39,562 nt of DNA from an uncultured Bacilli bacterium (GTDB lineage Bacteria; Bacillota_I; Bacilli_A; RF39; UBA660): assembly GCA_947627375.1 (NCBI GenBank), contig CANQVR010000005.1:1-39562 (forward strand). Direction: 5' to 3'. This document shows, one piece after another, positions 272 through 26,552 of the stretch. The notes below the pieces were generated by a model that saw only the letters and a program-made list of their open reading frames with translations, had not been told where the DNA came from and did not search any database. How positions within the stretch are numbered: the stretch's first letter is position 1; every line of letters starts with the position of its first letter. Position numbers and translations under genes: made by a program.

Positions 272-1531
272 TTAATTAAAACGTCTTTTTTTAATTGCAA
301 AACCAAATCCTAGTCCACTTAAAGCGATAAGACTAATCAACATAGACACATTAATGTCTGATGTATCCGGGTTTTTAGTATCATCATTTTGTTCTGGTGC
401 TTTTTCTGCAGGTTTTACAGAACTTGGATCTACTACTTTCCCATTTTCATTTTGTGTTACACCTTCAGATAAATATTCTGTAATATCACTGTTAAATTCA
501 CCACCACTTATAAAAGATACTTTTCCATTTACTTCTACTGCACCTTTTTCACTATTACCATTAAATACTCCTCCAGAAATAGAAATATCTAGATTTTCAT
601 TATCTCCAGGAGCAGATAAAGCATAATTATTCTCACTAGTTAATGTTCCACCTTTAATATCTACTTTTACATTTTCATCAGGATCAGGTGAAATAAAAAC
701 TGCAGAACCATTATCTTTTACAGAACCATCAGCACCCGGAGTAACAGTTGGATTTCCATTTCCTGTTCCTTTAATATTACCACCAGTAACATTTAAGTTA
801 CCATCAACCATAATGATACCTGAAAATCCAGAAATATTTCCTCCGTATACATTAACAGTTCCATTACCTCTTTCGAGTATTCCAGCACCTTGAGTACTAC
901 TGATATTAGCACCATTATAAACATTAATTATTGTTTCTTTTGCTGTATTTGCTCCATCAATTCCACTATATGTTCCAGTTTCACTAACTTTTCCATATAT
1001 ATTAATAGTACCGATACCATCTGTAGAATAATTAGCAATTGCTGAATTGTTTGTTGAACTTATTTCAGACTGTGCATCTACATTAAGACTATTCGTTTTA
1101 CCAGCCAAATTAATTGGTACTGCCTTTTCTTGACCTGAAACCTTTACTTTTTCTAATTTTAAATTCGAATTATTTAAAGTTATAGTAGAAGGAAATTCAT
1201 AACTAGTAGAAACATCTTCTGAAGTAATAGTACCATTCTTTAAAGTTACATTACTATTAAATAAATATAATCCAAGATTTATTAAATTTCCACTACCACT
1301 AAATGTAATTTTGTGGTTGTTCAAATCAATGGTAACATCTCTACTTATACTAATATAATCATTTGATGTTATATCATCTTCCAAAGTACAAACAGGTTGT
1401 TCTTTACTTTTTAAACAATCTTTTAATTCTTGTATGTCTGCAATTGAATCCGGGCTTGCAGCATGTACATTTGGCATTATAAACATACCAAAAACAAACA
1501 TTAAGCTAGCTAAAACAAATTTCTTTTTCAT
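272..1531 (-). CDS. Secreted, putatively wall-anchored beta-helix-like surface protein
   Basis: Signal peptide MKKKFVLASLMFVFGMFIMPNVHAA; repeated G/N/T-rich beta-strand segments; C-term NPDTSD + hydrophobic + KKRRFN; RBS AAAGGAG. Confidence 0.8.
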   Translation of the reverse strand: MKKKFVLASLMFVFGMFIMPNVHAASPDSIADIQELKDCLKSKEQPVCTLEDDITSNDYISISRDVTIDLNNHKITFSGSGNLINLGLYLFNSNVTLKNGTITSEDVSTSYEFPSTITLNNSNLKLEKVKVSGQEKAVPINLAGKTNSLNVDAQSEISSTNNSAIANYSTDGIGTINIYGKVSETGTYSGIDGANTAKETIINVYNGANISSTQGAGILERGNGTVNVYGGNISGFSGIIMVDGNLNVTGGNIKGTGNGNPTVTPGADGSVKDNGSAVFISPDPDENVKVDIKGGTLTSENNYALSAPGDNENLDISISGGVFNGNSEKGAVEVNGKVSFISGGEFNSDITEYLSEGVTQNENGKVVDPSSVKPAEKAPEQNDDTKNPDTSDINVSMLISLIALSGLGFGFAIKKRRFN

Positions 1532-1595
1532 ACTTTTTTCTCCTTTCTATTTTACTTGCTTTTTCACAAAACAAATAAAATGATTTAATAAATAT

Positions 1596-1625
1596 ATTAT
1601 ATAATGGTACCCCCCCCCACGTCAA
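1596..1625 (-). promoter_or_regulatory. SigA-type promoter with poly-G tract in the spacer (candidate phase-variable promoter)
   Basis: On minus strand: TTGACG (1625-1620), T, GGGGGGGGG (1618-1610), TACCATTA, TATAAT (1601-1596); spacer 18 nt. Confidence 0.8.
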
Positions 1626-4202: not shown

Positions 4203-5639
4203 TTAATATTGATTTATAATATCGATAATTTCATTATAATTTATAAACTCTTTAGAAATAATTAAATCAAATATATCATTTATTGATTTTTTTAACGATT
4301 TAACTTGTTCAGATAAAGTAATAATATTTAATGTTTTATTGGAATCGATATTACAATATAATTGACTAATTTTTTTCATTAATTCTCTAGGAAAATTAGG
4401 GATTATCACATCATTCCAGTATTTCATCGCTAAACTTCCACCCTGTCCACCAACAGACAAATATTCAAAGTATTTAATTTTTCTTAAATATCTTAAAAAG
4501 CAACATACAAAACCACTTTCTATCAAATCATGATCTAGCTTATTTAAAATTATTCCGTGTATATTAGTTATAACTTTATCATTATCAACATCACAAAACA
4601 TTGCACATTTTCCTATAGTACCCTCAGCAGAAAATACTATGTCTCCATTTTTTAATAATGATAAATTATTTTTATTACCTAAATAATTATATGAAGTTAC
4701 TGTACCATAATCAGATAAATTAGTAGGTTTAGCAATTTTATAAAAATTTCTTTGATATTCATTAGATTCTATGCTTTTCCCTATACAAGACACTTGCAAA
4801 TTTTGCCCTCTAGATATTTTATAACCAAAATCATTTAAATTACAATATCCATTTTTATAATTTTTAATTAATGAATGTATTCTTTTAAATTCCTCACAAT
4901 AATATCCAGCATCAATTCTATTTTTAGAAAATATTTCATTATATTTTGGCAAAGAATACTCTAGTATTTTGGAATTTACATTTAATTCTTTTTCTATTAG
5001 TTCATATATTTTGTTCTCTTTTATTTTTATTTGTTTTTCTTTATTAATGATATCCTTTACTATACTTTCTATTTTAGCAATTATTTTTTTTGAATCTTTT
5101 CCATTTGGAAAAGGTATATGGCAATCTAAAAACTTAGTTCCTGCATGTCTTATAGTTGCACCTCGTGGGATCATTAAGTCAAGTTGATTTTTAAAATGAT
5201 TTGTTTTCATAAAAGAAAAAATATAATATTTATTTCTTTTTAATGGAAGTCTATAAAAAGCACTGGCAACCATGCAATTAGGATAATCCTTATCTAATAT
5301 ACAACATTCTCCAATATTAGAATCTTTAGATATCAAAATATCTTCATATTTTAAATTTTGATTAACAAACGCATTATAATTCATAAATTCAAACGATTCA
5401 TTAGAAGATAAATCTATTGTATAATTATTCTTATTGGCAATTCTAGTCTTTAAAAATTTATATTCAGAATTTGTCATATAATTATTACTGCCAATGTCAG
5501 TTCCATTATCTTTTTTATTAAGTTCTCTTGCTAATAAATCTTCTAATCTAAAAGTATTTTTATTAGAATATTCCATTAATTGCAATTGATGAGGCGATAA
5601 AACAAATTTATTTTTAATTATATCATTATATTTAATCAT
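4203..5639 (-). CDS. Type I-like restriction-modification specificity (S) subunit
   Basis: Two half-repeats typical of HsdS (e.g. MIPRGATIRHAGTKFLDCHIPFPN... and ...SVGGQGGSLAMKYWNDVIIPNFP) separated by helical segments; directly downstream of N6 methylase. Confidence 0.85.
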   Translation of the reverse strand: MIKYNDIIKNKFVLSPHQLQLMEYSNKNTFRLEDLLARELNKKDNGTDIGSNNYMTNSEYKFLKTRIANKNNYTIDLSSNESFEFMNYNAFVNQNLKYEDILISKDSNIGECCILDKDYPNCMVASAFYRLPLKRNKYYIFSFMKTNHFKNQLDLMIPRGATIRHAGTKFLDCHIPFPNGKDSKKIIAKIESIVKDIINKEKQIKIKENKIYELIEKELNVNSKILEYSLPKYNEIFSKNRIDAGYYCEEFKRIHSLIKNYKNGYCNLNDFGYKISRGQNLQVSCIGKSIESNEYQRNFYKIAKPTNLSDYGTVTSYNYLGNKNNLSLLKNGDIVFSAEGTIGKCAMFCDVDNDKVITNIHGIILNKLDHDLIESGFVCCFLRYLRKIKYFEYLSVGGQGGSLAMKYWNDVIIPNFPRELMKKISQLYCNIDSNKTLNIITLSEQVKSLKKSINDIFDLIISKEFINYNEIIDIINQY

Positions 5640-24850: not shown

Positions 24851-26552
24851 ACACCGCCAATAATTTCTTATAGATATTTTCATCAACTATAGAAGTTGCT
24901 TTAATGGAAATATCTAAAGATTTTTTATACTCCCCTTTATAAAATGCAACTGTAGCCTCATTTATTCCATTTTCTACTTCTTTATAACTAGAAATATATC
25001 TATTTCCATAAACTATAGCTTTTTCAGCAAGCATCGCAGTTTTTACCATTTCGTTAGTAGTCTTATATAATTTTAAAACTAAATCTCTTGCAGTATCTAC
25101 TCTAGTGTTTAAAGTTTTAATAACAATTGGTTTCTTTTCTAATTCTTTTATTACTTCTAAAATTGCTTCATTAGCTTCTGATAATTCTACAAAATACTTA
25201 TCAGTAATGATTGGTAATTTATAACTTCTAATTTTAGTTTTAGATTGTTTTAAAAATTCCTGTATTTCATTTAATTGTTCACGGGCACGAACTTCATCAT
25301 CATACATATTTCCAAGAGATTTTAAAGCTACGTCTAATTGTTCTTCCATATTTTTAAGTCTTACCGTTAAATCTTCGATTTCTTTATGAACTACTGAATA
25401 TGGAGATGAGCCATTTTTCACTGTTGCTTTTAATTTTTTATAATCATCATTAATTTTAACTAAAGATTTATTAGCTTCGTCTATTATTATGACATCTTCA
25501 TCATTTAGATCATACATATTTTTTATATCGTCTAATTGATTATATATCTCCTTTACCATTTTATTAATTTTTTGAATTTTTTTAGAAAAATCTTTATTGA
25601 TTTCTTCATATACTTTACGACTAAGTCTTTCTTTTTCAAAATCTACAAATAGAGAATCTAAATAATCAAGAATTGTTTTTAAATCAAACATACATCCTTC
25701 AAGATTTAACATTTTTACTTTGTCCATGATATTTTCAATATTCTTTTTAGATTCTTCTAAATTATAGTCAATATTTAAATAGTCTAGTGGATAACCTTCT
25801 TTTATCATTTCTTCTTTAGTATTTTTTATTTCTTTAATTCTCTTTGGAATAAGTTCATTAGCCATTAGTAAAACATCTGGAGTTTCATTAATAATTATAT
25901 CCATATGATCTACCATAGCATCAAGAGCTTTAACGATATGTACTACTTCATCATATTCATTTTTTTCCATTACTTTTTCAAAATCTAAAAATCTTTTTTC
26001 AATATTCTCAAGTTGTAATTCGATTGCTTCTTGCATTCCTTCGTATAATGTTTTATGTTGTTCAAATTCTTTATTAAATTTACGATATTTTGTTTTAAGT
26101 TTTGTAACAATATTACGATATTTTGTTTCACTAGAGGTAACATCTTTTATTTGTTCAAGTAAGTTATCTGCTACCTGTTTACTTTTATAAATTTCAAGTT
26201 CAGTTTTAGCATATTTGTTTCTGTATTCCTTATAGTTTTTATCTTCTATTAGAGTCTCAAGTTCAATAATCATATCATTAATTTTAGAAATATTTTTATC
26301 TTTTAAATCTTCAAATTTCTTTTGCCATTTATTATACTTTTCTTCCATTTTTTCATTATTAATAATAGATTCTACTTTAGATAATTCCAAAAGAACTGGA
26401 GTACTCGCAATTAAATTAACATTGCGCTCTAATTCTCTAACTTTATCAGTATATCTTTTTGTTTTCTTTTTTCGGATTAATTGAAGTGTAACAACTACAA
26501 TTACAATCACGATAATTAAAACAGTTGAAATAATTAATATTTGTCCTTGCAT
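24840..26552 (-). CDS. ezrA: Septation ring formation regulator EzrA
   Basis: Single N-terminal TM then spectrin-like coiled coil; RELERNVNLIASTPVLLELSKVESIINNEKMEEKYNKWQKKFEDL. Confidence 0.9.
   Translation of the reverse strand: MQGQILIISTVLIIVIVIVVVTLQLIRKKKTKRYTDKVRELERNVNLIASTPVLLELSKVESIINNEKMEEKYNKWQKKFEDLKDKNISKINDMIIELETLIEDKNYKEYRNKYAKTELEIYKSKQVADNLLEQIKDVTSSETKYRNIVTKLKTKYRKFNKEFEQHKTLYEGMQEAIELQLENIEKRFLDFEKVMEKNEYDEVVHIVKALDAMVDHMDIIINETPDVLLMANELIPKRIKEIKNTKEEMIKEGYPLDYLNIDYNLEESKKNIENIMDKVKMLNLEGCMFDLKTILDYLDSLFVDFEKERLSRKVYEEINKDFSKKIQKINKMVKEIYNQLDDIKNMYDLNDEDVIIIDEANKSLVKINDDYKKLKATVKNGSSPYSVVHKEIEDLTVRLKNMEEQLDVALKSLGNMYDDEVRAREQLNEIQEFLKQSKTKIRSYKLPIITDKYFVELSEANEAILEVIKELEKKPIVIKTLNTRVDTARDLVLKLYKTTNEMVKTAMLAEKAIVYGNRYISSYKEVENGINEATVAFYKGEYKKSLDISIKATSIVDENIYKKLLAVYDD

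Follow-up and report, generated by a model that had tools for sequence, protein, structure and literature searches.

Most of the known promoter switches that act by slipped-strand mispairing come from pathogens. In Neisseria meningitidis the promoters of the surface genes porA and fetA carry a poly-G tract between the -35 and -10 hexamers, and the optimum for spacing of the porA type lies near 17 nt (PMC2791445, PMC7864442). Treponema pallidum tp0126, which encodes an OmpW homologue, likewise has a poly-G between -35 and -10 and is best transcribed at a distance of 17 nt (PMC7864442), while the poly-C of N. meningitidis opc encompasses the -35 (PMC7864442). In Mycoplasma hyorhinis the vlp genes form a surface-gene family in which each member has its own variable promoter tract (PMC10502178).

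The locus considered here lies in a stretch of 39,562 nucleotides from an uncultured Bacilli bacterium (the window), which is contig C5 of a genome of 1.24 Mb in 91 contigs (G000). Read directly, positions 1625-1596 of the minus strand are TTGACG-T-GGGGGGGGG-TACCATTA-TATAAT, a near-consensus -35 and a consensus -10 separated by an 18-nt spacer of which a run of nine Gs (G9) makes up half, and the end of TATAAT stands 64 nt from the ATG at 1531 (Table 1). The preliminary description had given the same hexamers, tract and spacer, with a surface gene about 65 nt downstream, and had called the tract the only long G/C homopolymer in the window; both statements hold, as the G9 at 1610-1618 is the sole G/C run of at least six in a window of 25.4% GC, for which a first-order Markov model of the window predicts 0.0017 runs of at least nine. 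The tract is pure, is of a length at which slippage can occur, and lies strictly between a recognisable -35 and -10, as in porA and tp0126. There is strong support for an architecture in which poly-G occupies the spacer of a putative sigma-A-type promoter of a surface gene, and we consider it likely that the locus is a contingency locus acting through promoter spacing.

Table 1. Features of the window promoter and its gene, and further tract promoters of the same genome
Feature	Position	Strand	Basis or remark
-35 hexamer TTGACG	1620..1625	-	sequence; TTGA/TTGAC adjoins G7-G12 tracts in 27 genomes
Single T between -35 and tract	1619	-	sequence
G9 homopolymer (C9 on +), proposed variable element	1610..1618	-	sequence
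Spacer remainder TACCATTA	1602..1609	-	sequence
-10 hexamer TATAAT	1596..1601	-	sequence
GAAAGGAG, ribosome-binding-site-like	1540..1547	-	sequence
Surface protein gene, 419 aa	272..1531	-	open reading frame; no match in Pfam search
N-terminal signal peptide MKKKFVLASLMFVFGMFIMPNVHA	1460..1531	-	hydropathy and sequence (predicted); conserved in tract-driven paralogues
C-terminal anchor: NPDTSD, hydrophobic stretch, KKRRFN (sortase-type)	275..373	-	sequence
Paralogous promoter and gene start, G10	G000:C15		sequence
TTGACCT-G8-TAGTTT-TATAAT	G000:C58		ahead of 588-aa protein with N-terminal membrane segment
G10-TAATATTA-TATAAT, without good -35	G000:C72		ahead of 473-aa protein with N-terminal membrane segment

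The genome as a whole holds six G/C runs of at least eight, against 0.36 expected (G and C summed, under the first-order Markov model of the window). Four of the six sit 6-8 nt upstream of TATAAT and ahead of genes of surface or secreted type, and in three a TTGAC -35 is directly upstream. The other two, a G8 on C13 and a G9 on C1, are not promoters. The first (26436-26443, L211) lies inside what was judged by eye to be a likely family-2 glycosyltransferase coding sequence, with the frame open as assembled, and is possibly a translational switch of surface glycans. The second (4449-4457, L212) falls some nine codons from the start of a short open frame (MKSLLKIN-GGG-...), and the frame that follows it repeats the phrase VLKDKLGNILNP.IPRYEK.

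Across the family, the pattern TTGA-N1-6-G7-N3-11-TATAAT was present in 27 of 196 genomes, at 139 sites in total and with a maximum of 41 in one genome (G107), and the reversed pattern used as a control was found in none of the 196. Outside the family, a version with G8 occurred in one of the 289 genomes of a phylum sample. The matches listed when GTDB genomes were scanned came chiefly from uncultured Bacilli of the rabbit ('Lapin') and goat gut, and Clostridia, Faecalibacterium, Treponema ruminis and Candidatus Ancillula were also represented; some of the matches in GC-rich genomes are probably due to chance. The listed loci with poly-G spacers in unrelated lineages are L108, L116, L143 (Faecalibacterium gallistercoris), L134 and L167, together with L074, L099, L115, L128, L151 (Ancillula) and L107 (Treponema ruminis). 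Those of F. gallistercoris share TTGACACC-G8/G10-TATGC-TATAAT, and the Ancillula tracts range from G9 to G13. Five IMG/VR viral contigs (L192-L196) also contain the motif. One genome of a related genus (G023) has dozens of G8-G9 runs and no TTGAC...TATAAT match; at four of its loci (L283, L284, L286 and L288) a recurring ATGCAACT-G8/9-TGCAATACAAT stands ahead of genes for signal-peptide proteins and is probably this design built from different hexamers.

The product of the window gene would be exposed at the cell surface, having both a signal peptide and an anchor made up of NPDTSD, a membrane segment and KKRRFN, and its counterparts elsewhere appear to be of similar kind. At the sites that were fetched the next gene has an N-terminal hydrophobic segment in nearly all cases, with four exceptions, as compared with 11 of the 36 window genes; the products of these genes are almost all signal-peptide or membrane-anchored proteins. 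Anchors of the NPDTSD, NPNTSD and NPDTAD types recur among the tract-driven genes, and 16 proteins that were checked, several of them from the same genus, carry NPDTSD, NPNTSD or a similar motif at the C-terminus, followed by a membrane segment. Because of these ends, and because the genome of the window has seven sortase-domain hits, the proteins are probably anchored by sortase. Other tract-driven proteins have a camelysin-type N-terminus (PF12389), two combining a GDSL lipase or laminin-G-like domain, and one is a Band-7 protein. At one further locus (L041, G016:C7) a G9 lies within the first codons of an open frame (ATGATGAAAAAAAGAGTCT-G9) and a membrane-segment protein follows out of frame, a possible translational switch.

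Among 118 listed sites the tract was G7 at 3, G8 at 48, G9 at 48, G10 at 14, G11 at 3 and G12 at 2, and the same genomes hold three versions with exactly G6 and three with an interrupted tract. An alternative to a contingency locus, in our view unlikely, is a fixed, factor-dependent element in which the G run serves as a binding site or a stiff spacer of set length, and in which off-optimal spacing (16 or 19-20 nt) marks weak, activator-dependent promoters. Such an element would account for the narrow range of lengths within genomes (G8 at 8 of 8 sites in G034 and 12 of 13 in G060, G9 at 16 of 20 in G107) and for the closest paralogues, in which the tract differed in 0 of 17 pairs with at least 95% downstream identity; it would also sit easily with MutS1, which is encoded in this genome and in 187 of the 196 genomes of the family and should slow slippage. 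It fits less well with ten within-genome groups of promoters in which hexamers and immediate flanks are identical but G counts differ, or with differences between close homologues: the G9 promoter of the window and the G10 promoter on C15 share 94% identity across the next 100 nt, between C15 and a congeneric G9 site (G001:C21) the extra G is the sole indel from the -35 to the signal peptide, and G001:C3 and G002:C39, likewise from congeners, differ as G9 and G10, with small changes in the flanks too. Moreover, it is the tract and not its flanks that these promoters have in common, their total spacing is mostly 15-22 nt, interrupted tracts are rare, and the architecture matches switches proven elsewhere. 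As judged from paralogues and congeneric homologues, some of which differ by one G while the closest paralogues are alike, tract length is variable over evolutionary time.

Hypermutability of the tracts relative to A/T runs was not demonstrated in paralogue pairs; among those with at least 80% identity the tract differed in 13 of 64 and A/T runs in 4 of 33, without a clear excess. Loss of mismatch repair as a general cause of the abundant tracts was rejected on the distribution of mutS1 given above. In G085, two interrupted tracts (C13:10905, GGGGAGGGG, and C14:557, GGGGGTGGG) stand in promoters that otherwise resemble those with pure tracts in this genome, and are possibly locked versions of the switch.

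The spacing of the tract promoters, which clusters at 16 and 18-20 nt and not at 17, also speaks for a fixed element. Ordinary TTGACA/TATAAT matches listed for five genomes with tracts, a minority of which are chance by the reversed-pattern counts, are spaced at 17 nt in 63 of 122 cases, as against 4 of 118 tract promoters (Fisher p about 1e-18, for sites that are not independent), and within the range of 15-20 nt in these five genomes the figures are 63 of 99 ordinary and 2 of 45 tract promoters. The four tract promoters at 17 nt are confined to two of 24 genera. Among the matches listed from GTDB loci below 36% GC, which overlap partly with the family set, 3 of 65 are at 17 nt and the peaks are at 16 and 19-20 nt; listed matches from GC-richer loci have a broad distribution without a gap at 17 nt. 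This avoidance is a pattern noticed in the data and not one predicted beforehand. Assembled sequence would usually represent a majority state away from the optimum, one to three G changes short of reaching it, and a regulator-dependent promoter would explain the avoidance too. A tract length that compensates for the rest of the spacer so as to hold 17 nt was not found (rho 0.14). The 12-nt spacers of four sites in G098 probably reflect a wrong choice of -10, because in the one copy that was read TACAAT gives a spacer of 20 nt. The preliminary description had read the tract as a phase-variable switch, and what stands of that reading is the architecture itself, a poly-G in the spacer of a surface-gene promoter, which was seen in 27 family genomes without any control match and differs in length between some promoters that are identical in other respects; the avoidance of 17 nt and the near-uniform lengths within several genomes complicate the reading.

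It is also conceivable, though we regard it as very improbable, that the tract is a passenger, in that duplication or recombination distributes a block comprising promoter, 5' leader and signal peptide among surface genes, and the tract travels with it without any switching function. The blocks from promoter to signal peptide are near-identical while the DNA upstream diverges, and numerous sites are no more than about 200 bases from the end of a contig (many of them in G107, G197 and G034, and also G000:C15), as repeated sequence would, as if a shared promoter-leader block were breaking the assemblies there. Against passive spread, the architecture is found in 24 genera, unrelated lineages included, with differing hexamer contexts, flanks and gene families, and because of these differing contexts the tract appears to have been maintained or re-evolved apart from any one cassette. 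Chance or assembly artefact is scarcely credible and a chance origin of the tracts was rejected, for although these are draft assemblies, mostly of uncultured bacteria, in which the consensus length of a homopolymer can be off by one, the 139 sites against no control match and the six runs against 0.36 expected limit the uncertainty to the exact G count.

A contingency locus at this promoter would operate as follows. Slipped-strand mispairing during replication would add or remove Gs within the population, each step shifting the distance between -35 and -10 by one nt, and that distance would in turn alter transcription of the surface gene. It had been pointed out that loss of one G yields 17 nt; the arithmetic is correct, and 17 nt is the modal spacing of ordinary matches listed for this genome (15 of 28). 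Since that is the commonest ordinary spacer, high expression is predicted at G8, and the proposed order of high expression at G8, reduced at G9 and low at G10 would agree with this mode. The locus would be one of a set, with three further tract promoters in its own genome and up to 41 in relatives, and as the genes of the set are mostly different surface or secreted genes, the cells of a population would differ in the combination of surface proteins that they display. We put forward more tentatively, as a possibility short of an even chance, that in this family of uncultured gut Bacilli the switches form one contingency system that spans a regulon: dozens of surface genes in each genome would stand one to three Gs off the 17-nt optimum, most cells would keep most of them low, and rare slips would switch on single genes, giving a combinatorial surface mosaic from a genome of about 1 Mb with mismatch repair. 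If the promoter does switch in the way its sequence would indicate, uncultured gut commensals with very small genomes apply slipped-strand promoter switching across a whole regulon, and the state of each switch can be taken directly from metagenomic reads, with no need of culture; the avoidance of 17 nt leads to a clear quantitative prediction on the default state of tract promoters. In a limited literature search no paper on phase variation in RF39 was found, and within the limits of that search it appears to be new that such promoters occur in this host group, that one genome carries so many of them and that they avoid 17 nt.

Set beside the described systems, the family vlp of M. hyorhinis, a species that also belongs to the class Bacilli in current genome taxonomy, and vmm of M. 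mycoides resemble the present case in having a family of surface genes with a variable tract in each promoter; the vlp tract is poly-A and that of vmm a dinucleotide repeat, whereas the tracts here are poly-G, and, unlike vlp, the genes they precede are of several unrelated types. The opc promoter is similar in that a homopolymer in a surface-gene promoter makes expression length-dependent, but its tract lies over the -35, whereas an intact TTGACG stands upstream of the window tract; of the precedents named in the preliminary description, porA matches in design and opc does not. A poly-G between -35 and -10 is shared with tp0126, which belongs to a different phylum and gene class and in which the effect of length on transcription has been tested, while the present case is known from sequence. 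Shared with porA and fetA is a homopolymer strictly between both hexamers of a surface-gene promoter. Those are a few loci in a Gram-negative species, in contrast to as many as 41 copies in about 1.2 Mb in AT-rich uncultured Bacilli, and the proteins concerned here are, to judge by their sequences, sortase-anchored and camelysin-like. By its architecture and the class of its gene, the window locus would work in the manner of the porA type.
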